Source: Schizochytrium sp. TIO01 (lineage: Eukaryota > Sar > Bigyra > Thraustochytrida > Thraustochytriidae). Taken from it: DNA of 64,000 nucleotides. The notes below the pieces were generated by a model. It saw only the letters and a program-made list of their open reading frames with translations. It ran no database searches and had not been told where the DNA came from. Both the position numbers and the translations under genes were made by a program. Below are positions 3,971-56,452 of this stretch, piece by piece (position 1 is the first letter of the stretch; each line of letters starts with the position of its first letter). The DNA lies in assembly GCA_004764695.1 (NCBI GenBank), contig SMSO01000031.1:2031048-2095047 (forward strand), in the 5' to 3' direction.

Positions 3971-4125
3971 CTTAAACCGCAACAGAGCCTCTTCAACAGT
4001 CTCCTCCAGTGTTTCTTCTAATTATCTCGATCTCCTCCCTATTGAAAGTTTAAGCGCGTATATTCTGATCAGCCGCCAGCGTCACGGCAAAACACGAGCT
4101 AGAACTATTCAAGCGGGGAAAGTTA

Positions 4126-17418: not shown

Positions 17419-19473
17419 TCAGAGTCTGCCTTCCAGCATTGTACTCCCTGAAGTAGCAGTGGCAGTGAAAAGATTACCAGCAGCCAGAATATTCTGAGGG
17501 TCCATGATCTTCTTGATCGCATGCAAAAGCTCACGCTGAGCAGACGAGGTCACCTGTTGGTAAAACGGCAAACGAACCTTACCTACGCCATGATGATGTG
17601 ATAGACTTCCACCTGCACGCAAAACCTCCTCGCGGGCACTATCCTCAATACGAGAAAACACCTCAATAGGAGTGCTCAATGATGCGATATCGTTCACGTT
17701 TATTCCAAAGTAGAAATACATCGCACAGCATGTATCGTACGTTTGTGTAATACGGCCGCCCACCAGAGGCGCTGCCACTAACCCAGCAGCCCCTGCCTCC
17801 ACTCGAATTCGCTCACATACTCGGTCATAAAGCTGAGAGACTTGTGACCATGGAACTGTAGTTTCAAAGGACTCAGAGATGAATCCAAAGTCTAAGCCAA
17901 AGTCGCGAAGATAAGCAATCATCCAAGTCAAGTTATAACCACGGTGTGCACTCTCCGCACCGGCACGGATTCCACCATAGCGCTTACAAATGCTATCAAC
18001 TTGCCGCATAGACTCACGCACTTGAGCAGCATCGTACCCTTCGAACAAAAGAGTCATTGCGCACATGTGGTCAGGGTCTAGCTTGTGGTACTCTAATACA
18101 TAGAATTTCTTGGCTTTATCAATCAAAGAGCTTATTTTCCCTGGTGGAGTAGGGCCCTTCAAAGCTTGGCCCATTTTAAATTGTGCGTTATCCATTAGAC
18201 GCACACTCGATGGTGCGGCTCGCAAAAGAGCAATCTCCCGCATAGCGCCCTGACCATCACGAAAACTTCCAAATACATAAGAATCAAAAAGTTTCTGGCT
18301 TGGCCTGAGACGCAAGCGTACCACTATTTCTGTCACTACTCCAAGAACACCCTCTGACCCAATAGCAAGCTTGACGGGGTCAGGGCCAATAGAATCACGC
18401 TCGAAGACTGACTCACGAGTCAAGGTTCCCATCCCTGGAGTCACCAGCTTAATATTAAGGACGATGTCCTCAATGTTTCCGTAGGTATTTTTTTTCATGC
18501 CTGATGATTTCGTTGCGACCCAACCACCTAAGGTGCTGAATTCCAGGCTATCAGGTTCATGGCCCAGAGTAAGACCTAGCCGCCCAAGCTTCTCTTCAAT
18601 ATCTCTGCCATAGGCTCCAGCCTCGATACATGCAGACATGTTGTTTCGGTCCACCCACAATATATTGTTCATTTTTCGCATGTCAAGGCTCACAATGCAA
18701 CGGCGATTAAGATTGTTCAGTGATCCATTGGCTTGTGGCACACGCAGTGCTTGCGTAACGCTGCTGCAACCACCAACAGGAACTAACACACAATCATGGT
18801 TTACAGCGGCCTTAACAACGGCCTCAACTGCTTCGTGCGACTTGGGAAACACAACCAGATCGGGAATTTGCCACGGGACGACTGGATCAAACCGTAAAGA
18901 ATAGATCTCTTGCACAGATTGACCATGGCTGCGGCGAACGCGCGTCATAAGATCCTCACTCACATCAACATCATTTCTGTCAATGAACTCATCAAGAAAA
19001 CCCTGGTTTTTCACAGACGCTGGGTATTTTTGTGGATCCGGACCAGATAAAGGTTCCGCTGGGTTTTCCAGGTCCAGGCCTAGCACAGACTCAGCCCAAT
19101 CTGCAAATTCTGGAAAATCTCGTTGACCTCGTGGGAAAATATCCAAGTATCGCTCACCCAAGAGCTTCACTGTCCCATCTTCGTCTACCCGCAAATTACA
19201 GTCCCTATAACCCCATCCATTCCAGCGAGTTTCTTCCTCACCATCATCCACAATATTTGGCTGTCGAGAATTTTTCCGGGGAGACAATTTCGATCCATTC
19301 ATTTCTGATCTGTTATGCAAAGGTTGTTGTTTATTTGACTCAGCATATTGCTCCATCAGGGCCTCCTCGAGCCATTTCCATTCATCTTCCTCGGCCGTAC
19401 TGCGCATCTTTACCTCCTTTAAGCCTTCAGCAGCTGTACTTGCATCTTCGTCATCCCCAACCCGAGACGCCAT
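17419..19473 (-). CDS. AGPS: Alkyldihydroxyacetonephosphate synthase
   Basis: This FAD enzyme exchanges the acyl chain of acyl-DHAP for a fatty alcohol, the ether-bond-forming step of ether lipid and plasmalogen synthesis, normally in peroxisomes. The 684-aa protein has the FAD-binding type 4 domain (PVGGCSSVTQAL near residue 230; EPDSLEFSTLGGWVATKSSG; MKKNTYGNIEDIV) and the substrate domain with MDNAQFKMGQALKG and the diagnostic histidine run SLSHHHGVGK near the C-terminus. The frame extends 11 codons upstream only to a TTG, so the ATG at 19473 is used. The human enzyme carries an N-terminal PTS2; none is evident here. The C-terminus ends GRL, a weak PTS1-like tripeptide. Residues ~1-100 are acidic and variable. 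It is divergently paired with the DyP-like gene. Confidence 0.93.
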   Translation of the reverse strand: MASRVGDDEDASTAAEGLKEVKMRSTAEEDEWKWLEEALMEQYAESNKQQPLHNRSEMNGSKLSPRKNSRQPNIVDDGEEETRWNGWGYRDCNLRVDEDGTVKLLGERYLDIFPRGQRDFPEFADWAESVLGLDLENPAEPLSGPDPQKYPASVKNQGFLDEFIDRNDVDVSEDLMTRVRRSHGQSVQEIYSLRFDPVVPWQIPDLVVFPKSHEAVEAVVKAAVNHDCVLVPVGGCSSVTQALRVPQANGSLNNLNRRCIVSLDMRKMNNILWVDRNNMSACIEAGAYGRDIEEKLGRLGLTLGHEPDSLEFSTLGGWVATKSSGMKKNTYGNIEDIVLNIKLVTPGMGTLTRESVFERDSIGPDPVKLAIGSEGVLGVVTEIVVRLRLRPSQKLFDSYVFGSFRDGQGAMREIALLRAAPSSVRLMDNAQFKMGQALKGPTPPGKISSLIDKAKKFYVLEYHKLDPDHMCAMTLLFEGYDAAQVRESMRQVDSICKRYGGIRAGAESAHRGYNLTWMIAYLRDFGLDFGFISESFETTVPWSQVSQLYDRVCERIRVEAGAAGLVAAPLVGGRITQTYDTCCAMYFYFGINVNDIASLSTPIEVFSRIEDSAREEVLRAGGSLSHHHGVGKVRLPFYQQVTSSAQRELLHAIKKIMDPQNILAAGNLFTATATSGSTMLEGRL

Positions 19474-20034
19474 ACCTGTGGCTCTTACCAGGCGCAAAAC
19501 GCCCAAAGCGATAAGAATCTATCTTCAAGAGTCCTGAGGTTTGTTTTAGCCCGATACTTGATCTCCAGCAGCCTCCTATGCGTCTTTGATCGCGTTTTCG
19601 TCACTTCTACGAACGAGGCCAGCGTGGTCCCCCGCGGCGGCGCATCTACTTTTGCTGCACTTTCTGCAGCAAAATAAAGGTCCCTGTCCTACAAAAAGGG
19701 ACTGAGTGCCTCCCCCTATTACGCCCTAATTGGTTCGTCGATGAGGGGCCGATTCTAGTATCTGCTAAGGAGGCCTTAACGATGGGAAAGGCCTGTTCGT
19801 TTCGTATGTCTCTTGAATTGTGTGTTGATCCTTTCCTGATTGGGCTATCAAACTCCGATTGATCACGAGCTTGATCTTGGACTGCACGACGCCAGAGCCG
19901 CGGCGGTTCCTGGTTGTAAGAGATTTTCCCTGTACTCTTGTGAATTCCGCGGGCTGGAAAGGCTCCGGGAAACTGGGCTTTGGGTCTACTAAGAAGCTTG
20001 AGAAAGCGCTGTGGATCCAAGGAAGAAGGCCCAG
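19474..20034. promoter_or_regulatory. Bidirectional promoter region, AGPS and DyP-like genes
   Basis: This 561-bp gap separates two diverging starts (AGPS ATG at 19473, DyP-like ATG at 20035). It holds a perfect inverted repeat at 19650-19674 followed by ATAAAGG. No gene is seen in it. Confidence 0.6.
19650..19674. promoter_or_regulatory. Perfect 10-bp inverted repeat, candidate operator
   Basis: TTTTGCTGCA (19650-19659) and TGCAGCAAAA (19665-19674) are exact reverse complements separated by CTTTC. Centre-to-centre spacing of 15 bp suits a dimeric factor. Its mid-promoter location suggests co-regulation of the two flanking genes; this is an inference. Confidence 0.5.
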
Positions 20035-21906: not shown

Positions 21907-24900
21907 TTAGATGAGGGCCATAAGCATTGCGCAGATGTACAGAATGGGATGCTGATAAATGTGTGCCGCATCTGAGATCACTGGAGCAGTGGGCTCCGAG
22001 GTGGGTTGAGCAGTGGGCGCTGCAGTAGGCGAAGTTGGGGCCTTAGTTGGGGAACTTGGTGATGTAACAGGTGCCGAGGTAGGACTTGGAGTAGGCGCAG
22101 ATGTTCCAACCTCGCATTGTGAACCCGTCCAGGAGCCCGTGCATTCACATGTACTCGTTCCTGCATCGGTGTCTTCAACACACTCACCATGCCCAGAGCA
22201 AGTTCTACCCTCACAGAGATCCTCTTCAATTGCAGAAACACTAAGCTCTGTAGAAGATTCGACAGCGCTTTGAATGACGGATGCATCTAAGCTCATCTGA
22301 ACGCTTGACACATCCAATGCTTCGCCAGATTCGGCTTCCTCAATAGACTGGAGGGCTGATTCTTTCGGAACAGCTTTGATAACAAGACTGCTAGTTTGAA
22401 CCGGCGTTGCAACAGAGTTCACGCTAGCTGTGAAGACCACATTCTCTGCAGATGCTTCCGCTTCAATAAGCGTCGCCAGCGAGCTAACCTCGATCACTTC
22501 GTCATCAGTATTGCCATTCTCAACTTCATCCTCTTCAATGCTTTTTTCAATCGAGTATCCCACGCTTGCAGTTGAGAGAGAGCGGCGACGTCTCTCACGC
22601 CGGTTGGTCTCAATCCAAGTTGTAACATTGCATGTTGCGAATCCTGTACACTTCTGCGCCGCGATCGCATTCTTTATATATCGCAACCCATTAGTGTCCA
22701 TTGCTTGACTCGTGTCTAGGCTCATGGAACCCGTAGTTGTCTGCTTGATAGTGATCTTGATATCGACCTTATCCCTAACAGATTCTGGCAAGGATCCTGA
22801 GACACTACTCTTCAAGTTGCTCAAAGCTGTTGATACCGCTGCAGTGTTATTCTTAGCCTTCAGGATATTCTGGGACATAGAAACCTTGAACGTAACAAGA
22901 GGCTCTGGTGCAGGCTTAGTTGGTGCCGGAGTCGGTGCGCGAGTGGGGACTTGAGTAGGAGAATCCGTCGAGGAGGTACCGGAATCTGCTGTTGGGGAGG
23001 ATGTAGTTGGGGAGCTTACAGCAAAAGAAAAACTGTTAGAATTTTCAACCTCTGTAAGGCTCGAACCATATCCCAATTCACCGCCCGCAGTAAGATTGGT
23101 ATCTGGTGAAGTACATGCATCGCCAATCCAGCCAACATGACATGTGCAGACTGCATCACCAGTCTCAATCGAGCAATCGCCATGCCCTCCACAAGAGATG
23201 CCATCACTATCCATAGGGCAGTTCATTCGACCACAAGCACTACCTGTGTAGAGCGCTGCAGTGTTACCCTGATTACATGTACAAACATGGGTGCTGTCGT
23301 CACAGACACCATTGTCATTGCAATAGAAAGAGCACCCCGCGTCACAAGCAGCACCGCTGAAGCCACACCGGCATATACATTGAACCGTATCATCGCTGCC
23401 AAGCACACAGGTGCCAGATGAGCTACTGCAGGACGAGCACGTCTTTGTGCTTGTGGTGAGTGAATCTGCGACGCGGAAGATTGGGTAATAAACCCCTCCT
23501 TCGGCGATTTCAATACAAATCTGGGATGCAGTCCGCTCAACATAGATTGAAGTATCATTCTCAAATAAAACGGGACGCACAATACCCTCTGCATCCATTT
23601 TTCCAACCGCGTACGTGTCAAAGACATCCTCGCGCAAAGTAATGTCCTCTCGAGCTGGCAAGCAAAGCAACACAGACTCAACTGCGCCAGTTATGTTGAG
23701 GCCACGACCATTTCCAATGAGCTGGCCAACCACAAGCCCACCAGTGTTAATCACCGCAAATGCATCAAACGAGGAGGCGTCTTCATCTTGGCATGGTTCA
23801 TGTTTGCTGTAGATACCTGCTGAATATTCTGTCACAGACACCGAAGTAAAGCTGGCATTAGTTTCTACCAAGCGTCGTCGAGCTTCCTCTGTTATTATGC
23901 TACTGGTAACAACTGTGACACCAGAACCTGCCGAAAGTGTTTGGCCAAGAGGTAGCTCTTGCTCGGTACTCAGTGCACCTCCTTTTTGAGTTTCAAAACA
24001 CTCAGATTCTGAGGATGACGTTCCGGAACAATCACACGAAATCGTTTCAAGAACCTTATTGTAAAGGTTATACCTTACAAGAAGCTCCTGCATCTTATAT
24101 TGCGCAAACGCCCGCATCACAGGATTCTTAAGCTGCTCCTGGACTAGATAATAAGCTTGGCGAGGGATCCACTTATTTACAGATTCCATCTCCCGACCGT
24201 TCGGCTTGAAGCTAAATTGGCGCACAAAGGGCTTCATAAGATTACCACCTTGCCAGTGTCCCATATTCACCACCTCTCCACCGCAATATATGCAGTCCTC
24301 CTCACTGTATTGGCGTACATCCCAGCGGTTCAATTTGCAACCAGGGATAGAGCAAGACTCTGCGTTACGAATAGGTTCATACCATGTGGCATTGACAGCA
24401 ATACAATCTTCCTCGGTGTATATTCCCTCTTGCTTGCAGCCCAAGGAATGCCACAAATACCATTTTTCATAGCCGCAGCCTTCTGATATACTACGCTCCC
24501 CAAGACAAACACCTTGAATAACGTCACGCTGAGACCAAGAACACGAGACATAGGAAGAATATGAATACCCATTTTCTTCGACAACTTCCTCACCCCAGAA
24601 GCGATCGCCGTACTCCCAAGAAGGATCTGTGCAATGCTCGGTCGTGAAATCCATCACGCCTCCATACATATTCATGCAATCGCCTCGAAGAGAGCATTTC
24701 TCCGTAGAGCAGCGCTGGAAATTTGCCCAGCAGCTAAGCTGGTTATTAACAGCTTCCGGGTACTCTGGATTGGGAGCTTGGCAAACCGTGGACACTTCAT
24801 ACCAGTCATTGAGGTAAATGTCAGGTTCGGGACAACTATACCATTCATACCCCTCGGTCTCTTCGCACACTTCTTGAAGAGTGTTGTAAAGAATCTCATA

Positions 24901-27900
24901 GGTTTCATTATGAAAGCAAGCACCATTAGAGTCACTGTACATGCACGAAGGGCACCACTTATCGCATTGCTTACTTGAGAGCCGCAAGCACTGTTCCTCA
25001 GACCAAGGCTGCTCACCAGAGTAAAATCCAGTCTCTGGGTGACGACGCCAGCTGTTGATAGTACCTTCGCACTGACCTGCATCACACTGCTCCTCGGTAG
25101 CATATCGGGATGGTTCAAAGTAAAACGCAACATCGTTGAGCTCTCCACCAGCATTCAAGCAGGCCTCTTCCTGGTCAGCGGCAAGGCCCTCATTCACAAG
25201 GTTTTTCAAATCCCAGCTGTGAATCATGCACCAGCCCTGATCCTCATTCCAAGGACCACCAAACCACATCACCCGATCTTCGTCTGGAAAGTCAAGTACA
25301 ATTGTGCACCCACTGTAACCCCATTCATAATGCTCCTTGGACTGTACAGAGGAGGATGTGCTATTTATGTAACAGCCTGGTTGGCATTCGAATCCACCCC
25401 ATTCTCCGTTTGCTGGGGCTTCCCAGCCCGGAAATCGCTTTTCCCAGGACTCTCGCTCGCAAAGATCAAATTGAAAGCAATCCTGGCTGGAAGCATTTGC
25501 AGCCAATTCACGGCCGCAATAAGTCCAACCATTATTATCAATCCAAGTGAAACCAAGGTTTTCACAGTTTTCTTGCGAATAGCCTCCTTCTGTGTACCAC
25601 AATTGAACCTCACAACGTGCCGCTTGTGAAGATGGCCAGCCACCATCCCACGCGCAAAAGGGCTCATCGCCAACGCATTCCTCCTCGTTGTAGATGCTTC
25701 GGTCGTTGCAGCTTGTATATGAAAGGCATGCTGTTTCGTTCTGAGATACGTACTCTTCTCCGCAGCATTTCTCTGACTCAGAATAGCATTCATGGCACTC
25801 AAACATCAAGGGTTCGCAGTTCTCCTGGTAGCATTCATAACATTGCGTCCATGTATCGACATAATCTTGGCAGTAGGAGTACACCTCTCCGTCCCATTCA
25901 TATTCCGCCCAGGCACCTAAACAGCACTCGCCACCATACATGTTCATACGCCAAGAGCCGTCATATGCACTGCAACAAACTTCATCTCGTAATTCCCATG
26001 AACTTGGAGAACCAGGAGGGTAGTATTTACAGTCTTTGTAGTCAGAATATTCGTTTGTGTGTACAAACGCGTCGGGAGGGCAGCACGTGCCACCATTGAT
26101 CCAGGTTCCACCTGTGGCATTACACGCCATTTCACTCTCGCATGACCCCATGCATTCCTCTCTGCATGTTGAAAAGCCATCGCAAGGAGTATCAGGAAAC
26201 CGCTCTTGAACCTCTGGGATGAGACATTCATAGTCGTAACAGATGTCGTTGTAAGAATAGGCACAAACACGTTCTCCACCAAGGCTCTCGCATGCTTCGG
26301 TGTCACTGTTAAGCTGCCATTCGGCAATGTACTCTCCAGTTTCTTCATAACGCTCTGAAAGATAGATACGAAGACCGGCTTGATAATCACATGCCATTTC
26401 TTCCAGACATGTATCGTTGCAACGCCATTGAAACCCTGCATAACCAATGTCAGAATGCCAGCTTTGCTCGCCTTCGCAGCCATATTCCGTCATATGCTCC
26501 AACCACGCATTTGCAAAGCGATCATTTTCGTCTTCCACGTCTGTAGAGATTGGCTCCGAAATGCTCCATTGCTCCTTCAAGTAGTAAACAATGTAAGGGT
26601 TCTTTTCTGAGTAAATCTCACGGAAGCATTCTGCATAGCATTTGGGCATGTCCTTCATGGATGTTTCACAGCGGCCGTCTTGTGCCTTGGAGTACTTACA
26701 ATAGCAGTCAGCGTCAGAGTTGATATTTTCTGACTTATATATTAGCTCTGCGCATTCTTCAATGAATTCCCAGACATTTTCAAACTCTCCTGGGTCAACT
26801 TTACGAGAAAGTTCGTTTGCTAGCTTTGTTGCATCTTCCATCGTCGTGAAAAGATTGGTGAATGTTTGCTTCATGAGATCTGGATGCTGACAAATATCAA
26901 GCTTGTCCTCCTCAAAACCAGTTACAGTGCGTACAACTCCAGTCGGTACATCTTGAATTGGACAGCACATGATGTCTTGAAGCTCCCAGTTGCAGCATGG
27001 ATCAGAAACCCAGTCCGGGTTTCGTTCGTACGTCCAGGTCGTCTCATTCCATATTCCCCACGAATAGGGACAGTACCAACGAACATCCTTCTTAAATTTG
27101 GTGATTGTACCATGAATTGTCACAGAATTGAAGATATCAAGCGCCCCTGCAATAGGGGTACTCGCAGCCAGCGCAGAAACACTTACCAAGCTTTTCTTGA
27201 CATCTTGCCATGAGCTTGCTGCAGCAACATCACGGATTGCCTCCAATAGAACTTCACTCTTGGTTGCAAACAATTCAGGATTGGTCTGTGGTCTACCTTT
27301 TGTGATCGGCACCATCTCACAGTGCGCAATCTGCTCAGAGCAATCAGTGTTCAAGCATCCCTGCTGATACAGACGTTGGCCAAACGATACTTTCATATAA
27401 CCATTTTTAAATAAGCTTTCCCATGTATCGCAGACTGTTTCTGCGTTTTGTGGCCACTGCCCGTCATTCTCTCTCATGTATCGGTCACAGTTGACTTCAT
27501 GTCGTTCAACCTCCTGCTCAGTACCACCGACCCACTCCATTCGCGTTGTAGAAACCTGAACAGCAAACTGAATTGTGTTTGGTTTTGGGTTGCATGTAAA
27601 CTTGGAAAGGTCAGCTGTTGAAATATCTGCAAAGTCGAGAAACTCCCACTGTTCGCGGAGTGCTCCTTTCCACTTCATCTCTTTGAGGCCTTGCCGGGCC
27701 ACAGTTGCCATAGAATCATCACATGGAGGAAGTAAATTCAAGTCATACTCACCGTCCGGCCAATCGCATGACTCTGGGAGGTAGTCTCGAGTATTGTTGA
27801 CAGTCAAGCGAGCCACTCTTGAACGAAAAGGGTTCGACCACTCTGCAATCGGTTCATTATATCCATTGTTGCTTTTGTAAATCATAGCGTCATCATAAGG

Positions 27901-30900
27901 AGTGGTTTCATGATCAGTGAGTGTAGTCATCGGAACTAAGACGTCTTCTTCTGTAAGAGCTTTTACTTCCAAAAGTTTCTTGGTCATAGGGTCCAAATTA
28001 GACACATCATCAGAGGAAAGCGCATACAATGGTGCCCAGTACGGTACCATAGGTGTTACATCTCTACCCTCGCCAGTAGGATCGGTTACAGGGCATTCTA
28101 CAATCACGAATTTCACGCTTTTGAGATAGTCACCTTCGATGTTAACGCTGCGCGTGGAGTAAGTGCAAGAAGTGATTTGAGGGATCGCAAAAAAAGTCGA
28201 CTTGTTTTCGTATGCTTTGCAACCAGGATCATGGCTACCTTGCTGGTCCAGGGCTGCGCAATATTCAGCAACAACCTCATCACAAGCTACAGCGGAGGGG
28301 TAATCGCTGACAGCTTTACATTCCTCAGTCAAACAAGGATTTGTTCTGTCTGGAAGACGCCGATTCATGCAAAAGGGGCAACCTGATTCGCCTTCTGACC
28401 TACCACTGACTCCTTTTCTTGCTGGGCGGTAGGACTGCATATTAGGGTCCTTTACACAGTATTCACACGCCATGCCAGGCTCAGGGCAGTACCAATCCGT
28501 AGCTACCCATTGGCATGACTGGCATCCATCAGTGAAATCAAAGTTGTTTCCATCATCACAAACCTCGCCCCAACTAAGCACACCATCGCCACATGATGAC
28601 AGCTCTCTGCAAGCGCTACTCCAGAAACCTCGATCAGAATTACAATATTGCACTGTAGAGTTGACACAATCTACAATTTGATCAAGCATCGGGCAAGCTA
28701 CTTGATCTGCAAAGCTAAGCAAATCTTCTGTAAGCTGGAAATCACCTGTGGGAGGAGAAAGTGTTATGCCAGATGAAGCTTCCAAATAAGCACGAACCCA
28801 TGGCGAGTCGGGATATAAGAAACCTTGCCTTAGATATGACAGCACCACTCGATCATGCAGGGCTGTACATTGCTGCGTTTCTGCAAAAGAACCATTGTAG
28901 TATGCTTGGCACGCATCCTCCTCACATGGGCAATCAAGCTTTCGCGTATCGCATTGTGAATACGGGCACTCACGCTTGCAGTTTGCCTCATCTGGATGTG
29001 TTGTACAATGATCGTAAACAGCTGCCATGCACTCGTCGTTGTATGGATTGGTGTCAGAGTACTTCTGTTCAGCTCCAGGCCGCCCATAAGGTCCTGTGCC
29101 CGAAGCGTAGCAAGACCCACACTCCAAACGAAGACATTGCAAAATATTATCTGTGCTATCACCTGCTAGAGCCATTTGGCCACACTTGAACCCTGCCAAT
29201 GAAGAGTCTGTAGGGAATGCACTAACGTTCCCATAAACGACAAATCGGTCGAAGAGATCACAGCAGCCTTCATGACACTGATCCAGCACTCCTTGGTTTT
29301 CTACAATGCATTCAGCACTATAATCCCAGGTCGAGTCATAGTTCTCTTCCGTTGTACCTCCCATAGGATATCCATAGTATTCACAGTTCATGAATGCACG
29401 AAAAAGGAACGTAGCGTAATCAATAACATCTTGGGCAGGCTTCTGTTCTGATGTTGGCCAGATGGAATCGAAATCATCGGAAAAGGCAACTCGAGCTGCA
29501 CATGAGAATAGTCCATTGCTTTCGTCAAGGTTCTCAGGACTGTTGACAGAAAATAGTTCAAGAACATATCCGAGGCAGCCTTCCATGCGTGAACACGTTG
29601 TTGAGTTAAATTCGCCGATACACTCACGAATTCCATTGGCCTCAAAATTCTGAAGGTACTGAATAAGGTCTGAAGACTCACAATTAAAGTTGGAGTAGTA
29701 CTTCACTAATTCATCATATATCGCATCGTATTCTTTTCCTGTGTCAGTATCGTAATTGTCACTGCTATCGTCCCATTCCGATAAACATTCTCCAATTTGG
29801 GATGATATCTCCGTAAGGGTTGCCATGGTAGCAGTGCTAGGGAATGCAACACTAGTTGGCCATGTGGCATTAAGCCATTCCATCCCATACTGCATTAAAA
29901 TAATAGGACAATTAGCTCCATATACTGCACCATAATTCTCATCTACAATCTCTTCCCCGTTGTTGAGAGCAATGATAACTTGCTCCAGACATACTAAAGT
30001 ATCACCACAGTATTTTTGCGTTGGAAGACAGCTGTCCATTCCAGTCTTTTCAACTGCATCAACATATTGAACCAGCATATCACTTGTACAAATCATATCG
30101 CTTTGGTTGCTACCAGATCCATGATCTGACTCATAATGTGTATCATAAGAATCGTCGAAATCATTAAATTCATCATCGCTGCATTGAAGAATTGCACGAA
30201 AGAACTTTGACACAAATTGTATTGCCTCAAGAGATGGCATTTCATAGCCCTCGGGCCAAACATCCCTCAAAAAGGTTGAGTTCTCCAAGTAGGATATAGC
30301 ATCAAGGCAAACGAATGAATCCTCTCCATACTCCAGCAAAATATCAAAGCCACTCAAAGTACCATTATTAATACCTTGTAGAGTAGCGACTTTATCTACT
30401 GCGTCGAAGGTGCAGTTGACTAGGGCTGGTGAACATGCATAATGACTGTTCATCGGACTGCAGTTCTCCTGATCTAACTCTGAAAAGGCCTGAAAAAGAA
30501 GGGGAAGTATGTCAGGTTTGCAATTTGTGAATCCCCATTTACTATCATCATCAAAAGAGTTGTAGAAGTCCCCTTCGAACTCACAGCTCATGATTTCATT
30601 AACGAACGCTGAAACAAAAGTAATGGATTCATTCTCTGGCATTTCGATATCTGCAGGCCATATTTCTACAAGGTCAGAGTATGTGCAGTTGGCCATGGCC
30701 TCTAAGCAGTACAGTTCATATTGAACAAAATCATAGCCAGCAATCTCGAACATTGTCATTCCTGCTGTACTGAACCCATTATAAGCTGCAATGTTCTTAA
30801 GTAGATCATGTGTACAGTTCATTACGGTTTCACAGGAATGATTCCCGAAAGGCGTACACTCCATCTGGTCGATTTGCGAAAAGGAATCAAATATGTTTGA

Positions 30901-32010
30901 CAGTGTATGATTCGTGCATTGGCTAAGTAGATTCTCTTCATGAGAAAGGCTACGTCCGCCTGGTTTGACCAGACGAGAACCTTGGAAGATCTTAGCAAAC
31001 ACTTCTACAGATTCACCATTGAGCTGACGATCATGGACTGAGCTTTTTGCAAAGGATAGAATACGATCAAGTCGATTCTGTCGATCGCCGCTCAAATCTG
31101 GATTGAAAGTGGAATGACCCTTCAGATGCTGGAAAAGAGGATCGCCCTTCTTCATTAAACGTCTATTTGAAGAAGGCGCGCGTGCTGAAATACGAGCAAA
31201 CACATCCAGAATCTCGGCAGATACCGGCGAATAACGCCATAGTACATTCTCAAAACACTCAGAGTCCCATGCGCAGCTTCCATAAACATATGATTCAAAC
31301 ATATCCCACAGATTTCCTGTGCAAACAGTGTCACAAATTGTGGTGTTTGAAAAGAAGCACTCGGATACGTCACTGTTATAGTCAGTATTGTAGGAATTGT
31401 CATCATTCATGAAGCGACTGCAAGTTTCAGCACTACAAGAGGCTTGTGTACGCAAATACTGCATATCCGATGATGGATGGCAATCCTCGAGCTCTGGGTC
31501 ACAGCAAAAGTCATACACAAGTTCAAGACAGCCTTCACTGGATTTGCGGTTCTGACATTGCTCATTATAGCACGGATGCAGCCACGTAACGTTGCCAAAA
31601 GGTTCGTCTTCAAGCTCATCAATTCGCCAGCACTCATCGAGATTGATGTAACTGTTGACCGCATCTTCTAGATGGCGCTCATCTTTTGTTGCCAGAGCTT
31701 TCTGGCGCAATTCTTCAGAGGAAAGTCTGCGCGAATGCTTTGGTTTATTATTACGTTCAATCTGGTTCAGCGCTTCAACGAGCTTCGTTTGATGAAGACG
31801 CCGGTGATTTAGTGCATTCGTCAGTGCCCGATGGCCGTCATGTGCAGGCTTGTTGAATGGCGAACTCCGAGTTCCTTGTCCACTTAGAATTTCTATGCCG
31901 TTTCCAAGGAAGCGACGCTTTGTTTCGCTTGAGCCAGGATCAACCTTTAAGCCACAACACAGGGCAAGGATGGTTGCGAGGTAGAGGCAAAGAAAGTCCG
32001 TAGATTTCAT
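21907..32010 (-). CDS. Giant secreted cysteine-rich repeat protein with EGF modules
   Basis: This is a 3367-aa single frame. Residues 1-20 form a signal peptide (hydrophobic core FLCLYLATILALCCG). Residues ~363-910 hold four tandem units of 132-144 aa whose conserved Cys are at 365, 497, 641 and 777; each unit contains a WP....P motif (IWPADIEMP, VWPEGYEMP, TWPTSVAFP, IWPTSEQKP). Near 1140-1175 is a DUF4215/Myxococcus-type repeat (CGDGVLSWGEVCDDGNN). Residues ~1650-2600 are extremely Cys/Trp/Tyr/Glu-rich. EGF-like modules lie near 2855-2975 and 3265-3300 (CSGHGEC...CECTGSWTG). Pro/Thr/Ser linkers flank a domain at ~3035-3260, and the last ~15 residues are hydrophobic, like a GPI or tail anchor. 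Many N-glycosylation sequons occur. A cell-surface, wall or scale structural or adhesion role is inferred; the specific family is unknown. Confidence 0.85.
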   Translation of the reverse strand: MKSTDFLCLYLATILALCCGLKVDPGSSETKRRFLGNGIEILSGQGTRSSPFNKPAHDGHRALTNALNHRRLHQTKLVEALNQIERNNKPKHSRRLSSEELRQKALATKDERHLEDAVNSYINLDECWRIDELEDEPFGNVTWLHPCYNEQCQNRKSSEGCLELVYDFCCDPELEDCHPSSDMQYLRTQASCSAETCSRFMNDDNSYNTDYNSDVSECFFSNTTICDTVCTGNLWDMFESYVYGSCAWDSECFENVLWRYSPVSAEILDVFARISARAPSSNRRLMKKGDPLFQHLKGHSTFNPDLSGDRQNRLDRILSFAKSSVHDRQLNGESVEVFAKIFQGSRLVKPGGRSLSHEENLLSQCTNHTLSNIFDSFSQIDQMECTPFGNHSCETVMNCTHDLLKNIAAYNGFSTAGMTMFEIAGYDFVQYELYCLEAMANCTYSDLVEIWPADIEMPENESITFVSAFVNEIMSCEFEGDFYNSFDDDSKWGFTNCKPDILPLLFQAFSELDQENCSPMNSHYACSPALVNCTFDAVDKVATLQGINNGTLSGFDILLEYGEDSFVCLDAISYLENSTFLRDVWPEGYEMPSLEAIQFVSKFFRAILQCSDDEFNDFDDSYDTHYESDHGSGSNQSDMICTSDMLVQYVDAVEKTGMDSCLPTQKYCGDTLVCLEQVIIALNNGEEIVDENYGAVYGANCPIILMQYGMEWLNATWPTSVAFPSTATMATLTEISSQIGECLSEWDDSSDNYDTDTGKEYDAIYDELVKYYSNFNCESSDLIQYLQNFEANGIRECIGEFNSTTCSRMEGCLGYVLELFSVNSPENLDESNGLFSCAARVAFSDDFDSIWPTSEQKPAQDVIDYATFLFRAFMNCEYYGYPMGGTTEENYDSTWDYSAECIVENQGVLDQCHEGCCDLFDRFVVYGNVSAFPTDSSLAGFKCGQMALAGDSTDNILQCLRLECGSCYASGTGPYGRPGAEQKYSDTNPYNDECMAAVYDHCTTHPDEANCKRECPYSQCDTRKLDCPCEEDACQAYYNGSFAETQQCTALHDRVVLSYLRQGFLYPDSPWVRAYLEASSGITLSPPTGDFQLTEDLLSFADQVACPMLDQIVDCVNSTVQYCNSDRGFWSSACRELSSCGDGVLSWGEVCDDGNNFDFTDGCQSCQWVATDWYCPEPGMACEYCVKDPNMQSYRPARKGVSGRSEGESGCPFCMNRRLPDRTNPCLTEECKAVSDYPSAVACDEVVAEYCAALDQQGSHDPGCKAYENKSTFFAIPQITSCTYSTRSVNIEGDYLKSVKFVIVECPVTDPTGEGRDVTPMVPYWAPLYALSSDDVSNLDPMTKKLLEVKALTEEDVLVPMTTLTDHETTPYDDAMIYKSNNGYNEPIAEWSNPFRSRVARLTVNNTRDYLPESCDWPDGEYDLNLLPPCDDSMATVARQGLKEMKWKGALREQWEFLDFADISTADLSKFTCNPKPNTIQFAVQVSTTRMEWVGGTEQEVERHEVNCDRYMRENDGQWPQNAETVCDTWESLFKNGYMKVSFGQRLYQQGCLNTDCSEQIAHCEMVPITKGRPQTNPELFATKSEVLLEAIRDVAAASSWQDVKKSLVSVSALAASTPIAGALDIFNSVTIHGTITKFKKDVRWYCPYSWGIWNETTWTYERNPDWVSDPCCNWELQDIMCCPIQDVPTGVVRTVTGFEEDKLDICQHPDLMKQTFTNLFTTMEDATKLANELSRKVDPGEFENVWEFIEECAELIYKSENINSDADCYCKYSKAQDGRCETSMKDMPKCYAECFREIYSEKNPYIVYYLKEQWSISEPISTDVEDENDRFANAWLEHMTEYGCEGEQSWHSDIGYAGFQWRCNDTCLEEMACDYQAGLRIYLSERYEETGEYIAEWQLNSDTEACESLGGERVCAYSYNDICYDYECLIPEVQERFPDTPCDGFSTCREECMGSCESEMACNATGGTWINGGTCCPPDAFVHTNEYSDYKDCKYYPPGSPSSWELRDEVCCSAYDGSWRMNMYGGECCLGAWAEYEWDGEVYSYCQDYVDTWTQCYECYQENCEPLMFECHECYSESEKCCGEEYVSQNETACLSYTSCNDRSIYNEEECVGDEPFCAWDGGWPSSQAARCEVQLWYTEGGYSQENCENLGFTWIDNNGWTYCGRELAANASSQDCFQFDLCERESWEKRFPGWEAPANGEWGGFECQPGCYINSTSSSVQSKEHYEWGYSGCTIVLDFPDEDRVMWFGGPWNEDQGWCMIHSWDLKNLVNEGLAADQEEACLNAGGELNDVAFYFEPSRYATEEQCDAGQCEGTINSWRRHPETGFYSGEQPWSEEQCLRLSSKQCDKWCPSCMYSDSNGACFHNETYEILYNTLQEVCEETEGYEWYSCPEPDIYLNDWYEVSTVCQAPNPEYPEAVNNQLSCWANFQRCSTEKCSLRGDCMNMYGGVMDFTTEHCTDPSWEYGDRFWGEEVVEENGYSYSSYVSCSWSQRDVIQGVCLGERSISEGCGYEKWYLWHSLGCKQEGIYTEEDCIAVNATWYEPIRNAESCSIPGCKLNRWDVRQYSEEDCIYCGGEVVNMGHWQGGNLMKPFVRQFSFKPNGREMESVNKWIPRQAYYLVQEQLKNPVMRAFAQYKMQELLVRYNLYNKVLETISCDCSGTSSSESECFETQKGGALSTEQELPLGQTLSAGSGVTVVTSSIITEEARRRLVETNASFTSVSVTEYSAGIYSKHEPCQDEDASSFDAFAVINTGGLVVGQLIGNGRGLNITGAVESVLLCLPAREDITLREDVFDTYAVGKMDAEGIVRPVLFENDTSIYVERTASQICIEIAEGGVYYPIFRVADSLTTSTKTCSSCSSSSGTCVLGSDDTVQCICRCGFSGAACDAGCSFYCNDNGVCDDSTHVCTCNQGNTAALYTGSACGRMNCPMDSDGISCGGHGDCSIETGDAVCTCHVGWIGDACTSPDTNLTAGGELGYGSSLTEVENSNSFSFAVSSPTTSSPTADSGTSSTDSPTQVPTRAPTPAPTKPAPEPLVTFKVSMSQNILKAKNNTAAVSTALSNLKSSVSGSLPESVRDKVDIKITIKQTTTGSMSLDTSQAMDTNGLRYIKNAIAAQKCTGFATCNVTTWIETNRRERRRRSLSTASVGYSIEKSIEEDEVENGNTDDEVIEVSSLATLIEAEASAENVVFTASVNSVATPVQTSSLVIKAVPKESALQSIEEAESGEALDVSSVQMSLDASVIQSAVESSTELSVSAIEEDLCEGRTCSGHGECVEDTDAGTSTCECTGSWTGSQCEVGTSAPTPSPTSAPVTSPSSPTKAPTSPTAAPTAQPTSEPTAPVISDAAHIYQHPILYICAMLMALI

Positions 32011-42864: not shown

Positions 42865-44055
42865 ATGAATGTTGGCGACCCTTTGGGGTGGTACTGGGAA
42901 ATTCCTGTGGTTTCCCGTGCCTACTTCACTCTATCATTTCTCACGACTGCGGCCTGCGCGTTAGAGCTGGTGAGTCCTCTTTCGCTGTATTTTAACTACT
43001 CACTCATAGCGAAAGGTCAATTATGGCGCCTTGTGACCTCTTTCCTCTTCTTTGGTCTTTTTAGCCTTGATTTTGTCTTTCATATGTACTTTCTCATCCG
43101 CTATTGCCGTCTGCTTGAAGAGAATTCATTTCGAGGGCCGGGTCGGAGGGGAGACTTTGTAGTTTTTATTCTTTTTTGTGCTGTACTTATGTCACTCATT
43201 GCTCCTTTTGTCAATGTGCCCTTCATGTCAAGTTCTCTCACCTTTGCTATGGTTCACCTTTGGGGCCGTCGTAATCCGCACATTCGTATGAACTTCTTGG
43301 GTCTCTTTACCTTTACAGCAAGTTATCTTAGCACAGTCTTATTCTCCTTCAGCCTTATTCTTGGCCACAGTGCCACCGTTGATCTCATCGGTATTGTCGT
43401 GGGTCACATTTATTACTTCTGGGACGATGTATATGTGGAGTTGGCTCGGATCCGTGGCTGGCCTGCCAGACATTATCTTCGTCTCAGCAACTACTTGCCG
43501 GCAGAGCCAGAGATTCAGGTTCAGACTGATCAAGATAGCAATGCTACCATGGACACTGGAGTCGGAAATCGTGGTGCTCAAGATGAGGGACAAACCCCTG
43601 CTCACCAGCAACCTGAAGAAGCCGAACCTCAAGATACTTCTCCTCAACAGGATAATGAAAACGTTGTATCGCCTGCAGCAGGTTCATCTGACTCCCAAAT
43701 TGAGACAGATGCACCAAGTGAACCGCCAATCAGTCCTGGGTTGACATCTGGCGTACCTGCTACTCCTCCTGAAATTCCTTCTCGAAACTCAATCGAAGAC
43801 ATGCGTGCACAACGCCTTGCAGCTTTAGAAAGAAGATTTCAGACACTGAATGTTCCACAGAATGAGAACGAACAAGAAATAGTTTCTGTGTCGAACTCCT
43901 TGGATGCGACTGGAAATATTAAGAACCAGTCGAAGGATGGGGTAGAAAAGAGTTCTATGGATGAGACTTCCCAGGATGACCATGAAGTTGCTGTAGAAGC
44001 GCATAACAAAGATGGACTTCGTCAGAGAAAACAGAGCGCAATAGATGAAGAGTAA
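42865..44055 (+). CDS. Derlin (Der1-like) ER membrane protein
   Basis: Derlins are rhomboid-fold pseudoproteases of the ER-associated degradation retrotranslocation channel. Residues 1-200 align with the family: GWYWEIPVVSRAY, KGQLWRLVTSFLFFG, MYFLIRYCRLLEENSFRG, then NFLGLFTFTASYLSTVLF and the highly conserved VDLIGIVVGHIYYFWDDV. There are about five to six hydrophobic segments. No Ser-His rhomboid dyad is seen, as expected. The remaining ~190 residues form an acidic, Gln/Pro/Ser-rich cytosolic tail, much longer than the tails of animal derlins, ending in a basic stretch. I see no clear p97-binding SHP box. The first ATG at 42865 gives the canonical N-terminus. Confidence 0.92.
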   Translation: MNVGDPLGWYWEIPVVSRAYFTLSFLTTAACALELVSPLSLYFNYSLIAKGQLWRLVTSFLFFGLFSLDFVFHMYFLIRYCRLLEENSFRGPGRRGDFVVFILFCAVLMSLIAPFVNVPFMSSSLTFAMVHLWGRRNPHIRMNFLGLFTFTASYLSTVLFSFSLILGHSATVDLIGIVVGHIYYFWDDVYVELARIRGWPARHYLRLSNYLPAEPEIQVQTDQDSNATMDTGVGNRGAQDEGQTPAHQQPEEAEPQDTSPQQDNENVVSPAAGSSDSQIETDAPSEPPISPGLTSGVPATPPEIPSRNSIEDMRAQRLAALERRFQTLNVPQNENEQEIVSVSNSLDATGNIKNQSKDGVEKSSMDETSQDDHEVAVEAHNKDGLRQRKQSAIDEE

Positions 44056-49627: not shown

Positions 49628-50770
49628 TTATGACAATTCTCGCTGTTCAAAGACAGCGTATTGGGTTTTGAGTGCGTCAAAGCAATGTTGTGCAATAAAC
49701 TTGACTTCCGGAGCCGCATTCTTGTCAATTTTGTCAGGATGGACTACAAGCATGGATAAGCGGAATGCCTTCTTAACCTCCAACGGTTGTACAAGAACAG
49801 TCACAGGCTTCCAACGAGCGCCATCCCAGAGGACAGAGTGTAAAGTGCTTAGCAAGGCCCGCACATTTTTCTCATTGCCCTTGGCTCCCGCCCACGAGTT
49901 GAGCTTATCTTGTAGCGCACCCTTGACTCGTGCAAAGTCTTCTGCGGATTTTGCTGTTGCCTCATCGCGAGCCCGGAGCTCCGCAACCTTTTTTTGCTGG
50001 GCCTCAACTTCAGCCCGCTTACGCAATTCCACACGCTTAGCAGCTCGAGCATCTCCCGTAAGACCTCGAAGCTCAGGGTGATTTTCATCCTCTTTAGGGA
50101 GTACGCCAGAAAATGTTTTTGGGCGGCTTGTTTGTGTTTGCTGCTGTGATAAGGATGGCGATGATGCTCCAGAGCTTCCACCGTGGAAGAGATCCTCTTC
50201 AACATCTGCACGAGGTTGGGGGCGACTTTGCGAAGATCCTGGCCTTGAGGTAGCGCGCGATCCGCCCAATAAATCATAAAGATCTTCCTTGGAATTCCGC
50301 CTTGATGTGCTAGATGAAGATCTCTGCGGTTTGGAGTTTGTAGCATTATTCGAATTGCTCAAGCTGCTCTTGCTGCGTTGATGTTGTCTTTGCGTCGTTG
50401 ACCCATTTGACAAGGGTGTTTCCATGCGAGCTTGAGATCTTGACACACCTGCCCTTGTATTTGCCTTAGGGGTATATCTCGCATGGTCGCACCTGAGCGT
50501 GGACAATCGCAACAATTTTGCAAACACATTGCCTCCCTGAGTTGGCACCACGTCACTGTCTCGAGTGACGTCTACCCACACGAAGCTTCCCTTTTTCGCG
50601 CCTGCAGAGGTTCGAAATCTCCAGTGAAACTCGTCAGCATGACCTTGGATCGGGAATTGCGCTTTGACATCTGCTAACGTAGGTTTGACGCTATCTCCTT
50701 GGAGCAAAAACATATTCGGGTGCGCCATATCCTCGCCCCTCTCGCCCTGCACGAAGTAGAACACGCTCAT
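49628..50770 (-). CDS. DIX-domain/auxilin-type J-domain protein
   Basis: A 380-aa protein with two recognisable ends. Residues ~1-90 resemble a DIX domain, the head-to-tail polymerising module of Dishevelled and Axin: FYFVQGE, an LADVKAQFP helix, FHWRFRT, then FVWVDVTRDSDVVP and VFAKLLRL, in the order and spacing of the family. The middle (~110-270) is Ser/Arg/Gln-rich and disordered, with acidic DLYDLLGG and DLFHGG segments. Residues ~290-380 form an auxilin/GAK-type J domain with the HPDK loop at 344-347 (VVHPDKIDKNAAPEVKFIAQ) that recruits Hsc70 to uncoat clathrin vesicles. The ATG at 50770 places the domain at the very N-terminus; upstream only a TTG is present. Auxilin J is secure; DIX is a strong motif-level inference. 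Confidence 0.85.
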   Translation of the reverse strand: MSVFYFVQGERGEDMAHPNMFLLQGDSVKPTLADVKAQFPIQGHADEFHWRFRTSAGAKKGSFVWVDVTRDSDVVPTQGGNVFAKLLRLSTLRCDHARYTPKANTRAGVSRSQARMETPLSNGSTTQRQHQRSKSSLSNSNNATNSKPQRSSSSTSRRNSKEDLYDLLGGSRATSRPGSSQSRPQPRADVEEDLFHGGSSGASSPSLSQQQTQTSRPKTFSGVLPKEDENHPELRGLTGDARAAKRVELRKRAEVEAQQKKVAELRARDEATAKSAEDFARVKGALQDKLNSWAGAKGNEKNVRALLSTLHSVLWDGARWKPVTVLVQPLEVKKAFRLSMLVVHPDKIDKNAAPEVKFIAQHCFDALKTQYAVFEQRELS

Positions 50771-52701
50771 GATGCCCAAATAAATCGCCAAGGCTATTTA
50801 AACAGCACCGGGAAAGCTATCCGGTGTTGAGTCTAGACAGATAACGCTCCAGGGCGCTTCAAGGTTCACGGGCAGCGCTGTCTATATGCGGCTTTGGACA
50901 TTGTCGATGCTGCAATGAGCGCCTCATCGTCTTTCCCGCCTTCTTCTGTGCAAGCACAGTTTGATCGATATTTTCCAACGCTTTAATTGTTGGAATTTAT
51001 CCAACATTTTGTTTTGCCAGGTTTTCATTTGATTAAATCCAACAAACCCCTCTATTTTCTCTTCGCGTTGTCACGGCCACCCAACGCCTCGACCATTGTA
51101 AACCTCTATTGTAGCGTGTTTTTTGCCTTCTGAAATTAATGTCTCTCCCAAATGACAAGATTTTGAGAGCAGCGCTGTCCGTGATTTGCTTCTTTCATCC
51201 ACAAGAACGAACTCTGTCTCTTTCATGTTGTTTCATGATTTCCATGAATCATCTGTGTCATCCCTATCTTTCCCAGGCATCTCATCATCCTGGGAATTAA
51301 AAACATCTAAAAATTAAAATTCTATTCTAACTAATAGGTATATTTATGTATATTAATGATATTTAGGGTCAAGGCCTCCATACATTTATATGTATAACTG
51401 TTTTTATTTATTTGTAATTAAAAAATTAAAAACGTTTTTCTTATCATTTTTAATTTTTTTTAAGCTAAACAGTTAATTTAAAAAAGAAAAAAAAAAGTTA
51501 AAAATAAGAAAGCTGGCTTGCATGAAAATGATGCTTGCAAGGTCATGGGACTCGTAACTTCTCTCTTTTGTTGTCCTGCAATTCATTTCTCAAGTTTGTC
51601 TGATCGATAGCACCTATCCAACTCCCAACCATGGTAAAAAGGAAGGTAATATCCAGTAAGTATTTATTGGCAAGGTAATCTTTAATTATTATTTTATTTG
51701 TTAAATCAATGAGTGCCTGACGAAACCAAGAATAGGAAGAAGCACAACACCTATACATGAGGCAACAAAGACTTCAAGAACAGGACTGGAAGCTACTTCA
51801 TCTTTGCGGTCATCGCTGTTCCCCTTAGCTCTTCTCACAACACGTGCGTTCATCCATTTTCTAAGAAAGAACATCTTTTTAGTAATAGGGCTAGTTGTTT
51901 CCTCTGCTCATGGATTGCGCATCTCTGCATGTACCCATGTGGCACTTTCGGAACAGGTTTGCGCGAGCTTCGTTCTACGAAAATCGATCCATAATGTGAT
52001 CCTCACGTGTATGGTCCCTAAGATTCCTCAAAGTCTCGACCCTTCAACGGTGTCCGCTCGTCTGCTTCTAGAGTCAGATTGCTTCATCCAGCCTGAAGTT
52101 ATCCTTGGGTGTTAACTTTCGTGCAGTACTAGTCATCATCGTTTATGTACAGTATAGTTCAAGATCTATGGCCACAACCCAAGAACTCCAAGTTCTTCTG
52201 GATCCCCAAGATCGCCAGCAGCCCAGCCGCCCCTGCGCCACAACTAGGCAGGCGGTGAAAATACGAAGCACCTACATCGTCAGCCTTTCGGGTTTCATCC
52301 TCAAAGCTGGAATCCCCAAAGCTGATAGATACCCTTATGGACGTAGGATCCCAGGTACCTCACGCTCACGCCTGCCTCCGGTGTGCGTGGAAGTGCTCCT
52401 CAAGCACCGCCGACCTCATCGCATTTCTCCAAGCCTGCCATGCTCGTCAGCCTCTTCGCTCCAAGCTGCCGGCCTGCTGTGCTCCAGCGCCTCCACGCAG
52501 TTTTCTCCAAGTTTGCCATCCATCATCTATCTCCTGCTCCAAGTTTCTTCGTTCTCAGCAACAGCTAAAGCCCAGCCGCCTGCTGACTAACTGGCTTGAG
52601 CAGCCGCCACGGAAGCAGACCTACCCTGTCACAGGAGCCGCAACGCGAACAACGACAGGAATCCGAAGTTCTTGCTTTCCGGGTTCCCGCCTCCTCATCA
52701 A

Positions 52702-54719: not shown

Positions 54720-54757
54720 TAGGTAGGTAGGTAGGTAGGTAGGTAGGTACCTACCTA
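54720..54757. repeat. (GGTA)n array ending in an 18-bp palindrome
   Basis: Seven TAGG/GGTA units end in a perfect 18-bp palindrome (54740-54757) centred on GGTACC, about 60 bp before the start of the fusion gene. Confidence 0.85.
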
Positions 54758-54814: not shown

Positions 54815-56452
54815 ATGAATGAATCAAAATCCAGAGATTGTTATAGAAACAGCGTTAGGAGAAGAAGCAGCAAAAACAAAGCCTTCAAAGCACTTCCCAG
54901 TTGGCCGCTTGCTCGACTCTGGGCAGAGCCGACAGGCAAGATGCTTCTCACGGAGATGGAATGCGAGAACTTTGCCAACTATGAGACAGTTGTGCATGAC
55001 AAGTCGCTGACGCGCAAGCTCTTTGAGCCTTTTTGGGATCGTGTGGTTTACCTGCTGCCTGAGGAGGTCGCACCCAACCTCATCTCGCTGGCAGCTCTTC
55101 TCTGCCTCATCCAGGCATGGTACCTTTGCTACACGCAGGGCGAGGAGTACCCTGAGGAGACTACCACCATCGCCATGGTGCTCATTTTCATCTTCTGGAC
55201 TCTGGACGCCGTCGATTCCAAGCAAGCCTCGCGGATTGGTAACGACTCGTCTCTCACAGAATTCTTTGACCACATGTGCTCTGCCATCGGCACCATTTTC
55301 CTTGTACTCACGCTCTGTCAGACCTACCACGTGCCTATTGACTGCACCTGGTACTACGTTCAGATTGGGCAGCTCCTCATCCTTAACAAACACCTCTCAG
55401 CTCTCAAGAAGGAGTTCATTTCCTATCGCATTTTCAACGGTCCCGGCGAAGGTATTTCTGCATTTCTTCTACTTCTTGGAGCTCGCGCTGCTCTTGGACT
55501 TTCTTTCATCGATGACGTAGCGAACCAAGTTCTCGACATCATGCAGCGTACTGTGCCCCCTCGTTTGTACGAGCACAAACCCGATCTCTTTGACAACCCT
55601 TCGCTGCAGCTTTCACGGACCCTCTTCTTCTGGGCCTTCGTATGGAGCACCATCATGACCCTTCGTATGAGTTCTGAGCACCGTGTTACTCAGGTCAGTT
55701 TGCTGCTGTGTCTTTTGTATCTTCTCATGGCCTCTGGCACCATCATTTTTCACTTTGACTTCACGCTGGCTAGCGTCGTGGCCCAGGGCTTGTGCACCGC
55801 CATGACCTCTAGTGATCTCGTCGTGGCTCGCATGGCAAACCGCCCTCTTGCCCCCGTAGTTGTTATCATCAACATGGCTGCTCTCGGTAGCAATCTTGTC
55901 AGTTTCGTCCTCGTGCCGATGTACTATGGAACTATCCTCTTTCAGGTCTGCCGCGCGACCAAGTTGCCGCTGCTCACCCGCGTGACCAATGTGTACCTTG
56001 ACGGCATCTTTGATATGGCCCACCTTGGTCATTTTGTAGCCTTCAAAAACGCTGCCAAGTTTGGCACGCGCCTCTTTGTGGGAGTTGTTAGTGACGAAGA
56101 TGCCGCGCCTTATAAACGACTTCCCATCATGAACGAGCGTGAGCGTGCCGATGTTGTGGGGGCTGCAAAATACGTCTACAAGGTCATCGAGCATGTGCCG
56201 TGTGTGAAGGGCGGGCTCGACGAGGAGTTCCTCAGAAAACACCGTATTCACATCGTTGCTCACGGTGAGGAGTACGATAAACCAGACGACGAGTGGTACG
56301 CTATTCCTCGTCGTCTTGGAATGACCCGCGTTCTTCCCCGCTTCGATGGTATGTCCACCTCGGAGCTTATCCGCCGTATCAATAGCCGAAACTCTGAGGA
56401 GCTCAACCGCAAAAGTCCTGCAGAGACTGTTAAGGGTAAGCAAACAATCTGA
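54815..56452 (+). CDS. CDP-alcohol phosphotransferase/cytidylyltransferase fusion
   Basis: A 545-aa fusion of two consecutive Kennedy-pathway activities. Residues ~45-380 form a polytopic CDP-alcohol phosphotransferase domain of the choline/ethanolamine type. The signature D1xxD2Gx2ARx8Gx3D3x3D4 aligns without gaps to residues 131-156 but is degenerate: D131, D134, A138 and D152 are kept, while G is S135, R is S139, G is T148 and the last Asp is S156. Residues ~390-530 form a CTP:phosphoethanolamine/phosphocholine cytidylyltransferase domain with intact GIFDMAHLGH (HxGH at 403-406), YKRLPIMNERERADVV, IHIVAHGEEYD and RFDGMSTSELIRRI. Prediction: CDP-ethanolamine or CDP-choline synthesis anchored at the ER by an inactive or altered transferase domain. 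The start is the first ATG; the frame upstream has only a TTG. Confidence 0.9.
   Translation: MNESKSRDCYRNSVRRRSSKNKAFKALPSWPLARLWAEPTGKMLLTEMECENFANYETVVHDKSLTRKLFEPFWDRVVYLLPEEVAPNLISLAALLCLIQAWYLCYTQGEEYPEETTTIAMVLIFIFWTLDAVDSKQASRIGNDSSLTEFFDHMCSAIGTIFLVLTLCQTYHVPIDCTWYYVQIGQLLILNKHLSALKKEFISYRIFNGPGEGISAFLLLLGARAALGLSFIDDVANQVLDIMQRTVPPRLYEHKPDLFDNPSLQLSRTLFFWAFVWSTIMTLRMSSEHRVTQVSLLLCLLYLLMASGTIIFHFDFTLASVVAQGLCTAMTSSDLVVARMANRPLAPVVVIINMAALGSNLVSFVLVPMYYGTILFQVCRATKLPLLTRVTNVYLDGIFDMAHLGHFVAFKNAAKFGTRLFVGVVSDEDAAPYKRLPIMNERERADVVGAAKYVYKVIEHVPCVKGGLDEEFLRKHRIHIVAHGEEYDKPDDEWYAIPRRLGMTRVLPRFDGMSTSELIRRINSRNSEELNRKSPAETVKGKQTI

Follow-up and report, generated by a model that had tools for sequence, protein, structure and literature searches.

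A thraustochytrid cytidylyltransferase fused to a degenerate CDP-alcohol phosphotransferase-like membrane domain

The nearest known architecture to the gene described here is that of archaeal AF2299 (PDB 4o6m) and the bifunctional IPCT/DIPPS enzymes, in which a cytidylyltransferase (CT)-like domain is N-terminal (PMC4634129); in the present fusion the CT domain is C-terminal, and the membrane half has ten helices rather than the six of the archaeal protein. The membrane fold is like that of the eukaryotic phosphotransferases CHPT1 and CEPT1 (PDB 8gyw, 8ero, 8ul9, 9uet). Unlike these, the fusion has the fourth signature aspartate (D4), both glycines and the arginine replaced, and carries an attached CT domain. 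That CT domain resembles CCT (PDB 3hl4, 4mvd, 4zcp) in HxGH, a Lys, RxxGxSTS and two of the three aromatic-box positions (Tyr, Tyr), but differs in having Cys at the box Trp position, in its attachment to an integral membrane domain, in its separate clade in our tree and in having no M domain, which makes metazoan CCT membrane-switched (PMC10720463). Tandem ECT (PDB 3elb) has a pair of CT domains and lacks a CDP-alcohol phosphotransferase (CDP-AP) domain, and the genome carries its own ECT-type gene elsewhere. A description of a eukaryotic CDP-AP/CT fusion, or of its decay, was not found in the literature searched, which lay mostly outside subscription journals. Here we analyze such a fusion from Schizochytrium sp. 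TIO01 and consider it fairly probable that an active CT is permanently tethered to the membrane by a crippled phosphotransferase, which may still bind CDP-alcohol and would substitute for the membrane-sensing amphipathic helix of metazoan CCT.

Layout of the fusion gene and its surroundings

The window, meaning the whole stretch of 64,000 nucleotides that was analyzed, contains a real and uninterrupted plus-strand frame at 54815-56452, within which Pfam places a CDP-AP domain at the N-terminus and a CT domain at the C-terminus (Table 1). A preliminary description had read this as a fusion in one 545-aa frame. The Pfam matches and the open frame bear out the fusion but not the length: the coding start is probably Met43 (window 54941), giving a protein of 503 aa, because homologues P0002-P0008 all begin there, the homologue from Hondaea fermentalgiana (Thraustochytriidae; the nearest listed protein, 84% identical) is also 503 aa long, and codon-position GC shifts at this point. 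An AGGT tetranucleotide repeat (54721-54748) precedes the probable start by about 190 bases.

Table 1. Positions of the features of the fusion gene within the window.
Feature	Position	Strand	Basis or residues
Fusion coding sequence, probable (503 aa + stop)	54941..56452	+	start common to seven homologues P0002-P0008; open frame
In-frame 42 codons, probably 5' untranslated	54815..54940	+	absent from seven close homologues; codon-position GC differs
CDP-AP-like membrane domain, residues 1-340, CPT/CEPT1 fold	54941..55960	+	
Degenerate CDP-AP signature, residues 89-114	55205..55282	+	D1, D2, Ser (G1), A, Ser (R), Thr (G2), E, D3, H, Ser (D4)
Cytidylyltransferase domain, residues 348-485	55982..56395	+	
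HxGH catalytic motif (HLGH)	56021..56032	+	35/35 family CT domains covering the motif
RFDGMSTS motif, counterpart of CCT RTEGISTS	56339..56362	+	Arg, Ser and Thr in 34/34 covering
Short low-confidence C-terminal tail	56405..56449	+	residues 489-503 pLDDT <50; M domain would not fit

Several other genes were noted in the window. The frame at 17419-19506 (-) encodes a FAD-binding oxidase (FAD_binding_4 and FAD-oxidase_C), which by its layout may be an alkylglycerone-phosphate synthase involved in making ether lipids. A Derlin of the DER1 family with a long C-terminal tail is encoded at 42865-44055 (+; 171 bits), an Aph-1 (gamma-secretase subunit) homologue at 3209-3982 (-; 99.5 bits) and a protist protein with an N-terminal DIX domain at 49628-50791 (-; 31.5 bits against a cut-off of 22.2). 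Judged by eye, the 3367-aa frame at 21907-32010 (-) encodes a large, Cys-rich protein that appears to be secreted and has EGF-like stretches close to its C-terminus.

The CDP-AP signature in the fusion and its relatives

The CDP-AP half is a ten-helix domain of the choline/ethanolamine-phosphotransferase type, and its predicted structure has the membrane fold of CPT/CEPT1 intact. The full D1xxD2GxxAR...GxxxD3xxxD4 signature is missing. The residues given in the preliminary description (numbered on the 545-aa frame) were exact on the alignment: Asp131, Asp134 and Asp152 are retained, and Ser135, Ser139, Thr148 and Ser156 replace Gly, Arg, Gly and Asp. The His and Glu that align with the proposed catalytic pair of CHPT1/CEPT1 are retained.

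Relatives were collected in three protein-collection searches, with scoring confined in two to the 7998 candidates that shared the most words and 400 candidates in the third, and the resulting list is a sample of at least 36 related proteins counting the fusion. Of the 36 listed, 25 span the complete signature as well as the CT. Nine fall short of full signature coverage (P0009, P0011, P0015, P0018, P0019, P0021, P0026, P0028 and P0035), but two of these, P0009 and P0028, extend over D4, which gives its denominator of 29. P0016 lacks the CT and P0038 has only its first part, hence the CT denominators of 34 or 35, and P0014 was excluded as a different protein. A profile search contributed only two further fragments, P0015 and P0016, among the matches listed.

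Among the listed matches covering D4, the residue is Ser in 20/29, Asp in 4/29, Gly in 3/29 and Asn in 2/29, and it is Ser in all nine proteins of the window clade that cover the position. The complete signature occurs in four of 27 listed matches (P0029, P0031, P0036 and P0037), of which P0031 carries the name Percolomonas cosmopolitus (Heterolobosea). Other residues are retained to varying degrees among the matches listed (D1 24/27, D2 20/27, D3 18/29, Arg 13/28, His 19/29). Relatives are present as complete ORFs in transcriptome sets with MMETSP/EukProt labels. Restriction of the fusion to stramenopiles was rejected, given the member named P. cosmopolitus and P0022, whose MMETSP taxid now resolves to Chloropicon mariensis, with transcriptome contamination possible.

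The signature changes were placed on a tree of 24 rows that was built without the signature columns and also left out P0016, P0032, P0038 and two separate CPT/EPT-type proteins. The fewest changes were one each for D4 and D1, two each for D2, D3 and His, three each for Gly1 and Gly2, and five each for Arg and Glu. A second tree, rooted on two single CPT/EPT-type proteins and with long branches and a weak order, again gave one change for D4. These counts are compatible with a single D4-loss event; the branch uniting the four intact proteins is weakly supported (68/46), and more than one loss may have occurred. Fewest-change counts cannot separate gain from loss, and the direction was read as loss because the intact signature is also found in the separate phosphotransferases. 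The four relatives with the full signature indicate that eukaryotes have had a fusion that was apparently bifunctional. The fusion was probably born with both active sites, its transferase half then decaying step by step.

The cytidylyltransferase half and the other Kennedy-pathway genes

Alignment and predicted fold place the CT fold and the HxGH and RxxGxSTS motifs of CCT in the fusion. The earlier statement that the CT motifs are intact extends to all covering relatives, with HxGH and the Lys in 35/35 and the Arg, Ser and Thr of RxxGxSTS in 34/34 of the matches listed. From alignment with CCT, we take its aromatic choline box to be Trp, Tyr and Tyr; the corresponding positions of the fusion are Cys, Tyr and Tyr. 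The Trp position is Cys in 25/34 of the matches listed and never Trp, while both box Tyr are present in 34/34. A W692 and a composite aromatic box are named in one report (PMC6060094). In a CT tree of 34 family rows, with a single CCT included, the fusion CT forms its own clade outside CCT and ECT (support 100/100) on a long stem of 1.65. Because of this separate clade and the absent box Trp, choline is not secure as the substrate, and another phospho-alcohol is possible. P0018, named Cladocopium goreaui, has two tandem CT domains of the fusion-CT clade and no CDP-AP half.

A C-terminal amphipathic M domain was not found in the fusion, which has 29 residues after MSTS, the last 15 of low confidence. 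Tails after MSTS are at most 37 residues long in 31/34 of the matches listed. The three longer ones have 54, 72 (P0026) and 99 residues, and a crude moment scan of these found no strongly amphipathic stretch.

The genome assembly (64 Mb in 37 contigs) was searched in six frames. PF01066 had at least six exon-level matches, the fusion among them. The separate intact EPT/CPT that the preliminary description had proposed looking for is present as two CPT/EPT-type genes, both complete at all eight signature residues and one with Gln for the extra Glu. The other matches, labelled by eye, are a PIS-like gene and a cardiolipin/PG-synthase-like gene in two pieces. PF01467 had at least nine matches, again including the fusion; two belong to the tandem ECT-type gene, a label supported by the CT tree, and the remainder, labelled by eye, are two small CTs, a two-CT frame (two matches), a PPAT-like and a nucleotide-adenylyltransferase-like match. 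Locus L012 (859-2724, +; G000:C30, about 8730444-8731310) holds a 622-aa frame with two CT-like domains, the C-terminal half of which has no Pfam match.

A rat CCT query matched the ECT-type domains (111 and 86.8 bits), the fusion (77 bits) and, weakly, a small CT. No other CCT-like gene was found in six frames among the matches listed (nine for Pfam, seven for the fusion query, four for rat CCT), in searches that an intron-split CCT could escape. The fusion is the best remaining candidate for the genome's choline-phosphate step. The stronger claim that it is proven as the genome's CCT was not upheld, as rat CCT matches the ECT-type gene better. The choline-kinase family has two strong matches among at least four, and the PEMT family at least five, two of them within one 861-aa frame, which offer another route to PC. 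In contrast, a report on an Aurantiochytrium strain states that a PEMT gene was not identified there (PMC10523756).

Possible roles of the membrane half

The preliminary description had argued from D4 as the proposed general base. That is the proposal for prokaryotic enzymes (PMC4634129), and the argument suits those; for CHPT1/CEPT1 the proposed base is a His rather than D4 (PMC10182977, PMC10156783), and the fusion retains the aligned His. Both Mg ions of Xenopus CHPT1 are bridged by the first and third Asp; Mg1 is also bound by the second Asp and, together with an Arg and a Tyr, holds the CDP diphosphate (PMC10182977). The equivalent Arg is lost in the fusion, and, judged by the CHPT1 structure, the lost D4 would probably have coordinated one of the two Mg ions. 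By analogy with published mutants, the expectation that transfer activity is lost or changed is well supported: Ala at any one of the four Asp leaves xlCHPT1 with <20% activity (PMC10182977), human CEPT1 D158A, the fourth Asp by position, has about 15% left (PMC10156783), and D4 changed to Asn in a bacterial PIP synthase nearly removes activity with substrate binding uncompromised (PMC4634129). Because D1, D2 and D3 are retained and the bacterial mutant keeps binding, a site that binds CDP-alcohol without transferring it is plausible in the fusion.

In the reading that we favor, the C-terminal CT would lie on the cytosolic side and convert CTP into a CDP-alcohol, which is most likely CDP-choline. 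The N-terminal half would derive from an active phosphotransferase by loss of D4, the diphosphate-binding Arg and both motif glycines, leaving phosphotransfer absent or very weak. It would have been retained to keep the CT membrane-bound close to the separate true phosphotransferases, taking the place of metazoan CCT's reversible amphipathic helix, and may still bind CDP-alcohol via D1, D2 and D3. The plain reading is that the integral pseudo-transferase took over membrane attachment; a role as an anchor is likely, and one as a sensor is possible.

Across eight proteins of the window clade, seven of ten active-site positions (the eight signature residues, Glu and His) are invariant, as against 103 of 340 domain columns (hypergeometric P 0.010, among close relatives that are not independent), and two of the seven are fixed as a new residue. 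This invariance above the domain background argues that the site is not simply drifting in the clade. D1, D2, D3 and His are all invariant there, which speaks against a narrower form of our reading in which the membrane half is an inert anchor that tethers the CT and binds no CDP-alcohol. This form is possible though doubtful. In its favor, D2, D3 and His losses also occur in P0012, P0013, P0025, P0027, P0030 and P0033 with the domain retained, which argues against a family-wide ligand-binding role.

It is unlikely that the protein is a residually active bifunctional enzyme, with slow or specificity-altered phosphocholine/phosphoethanolamine transfer fed directly by the CT half. Some activity could remain, because Glu, His and three of the four Asp survive and mutating D4 of CEPT1 leaves partial activity, and four relatives have the full motif. 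However, the fusion departs from the signature at four of its eight residues simultaneously, the bacterial D4 mutant is nearly inactive, and full-signature enzymes are encoded separately in the same genome. Those enzymes are also candidate partners for a mixed dimer, in which the pseudo-transferase half would pass CDP-alcohol on to an active CPT or EPT. CEPT1 is dimeric (PMC10156783), but the membrane half has diverged from both candidates (33% identity over 122 aa and 30% over 157 aa), and we regard this arrangement as quite improbable. A sequencing or assembly error, or a chance open frame, can be dismissed, as the same kind of substitutions is conserved in other genomes and transcriptomes. 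Full-motif homologues, which the preliminary description had linked to a local error, were found in four distant cases, but near relatives share the degenerate site, which points to evolutionary change.

Beyond the tethered CT that we favor for this fusion, we tentatively suggest that the eukaryotic CDP-AP/CT family may have begun as a two-step Kennedy enzyme, and that elsewhere, including in thraustochytrids, the second site may have become a non-catalytic CDP-alcohol receptor controlling the CT. The two-step form is apparently still intact in Percolomonas and three further sequences. If the receptor reading is true, these proteins would combine tethering with feedback control of the CT, a solution different from the amphipathic-helix switch used by metazoan CCT. 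The fusion is a candidate enzyme in which a helix-free CT is joined to a decayed next-step enzyme, with apparently intact relatives for direct comparison, so that substrate channelling, pseudoenzyme regulation and membrane control may be testable by domain swaps.
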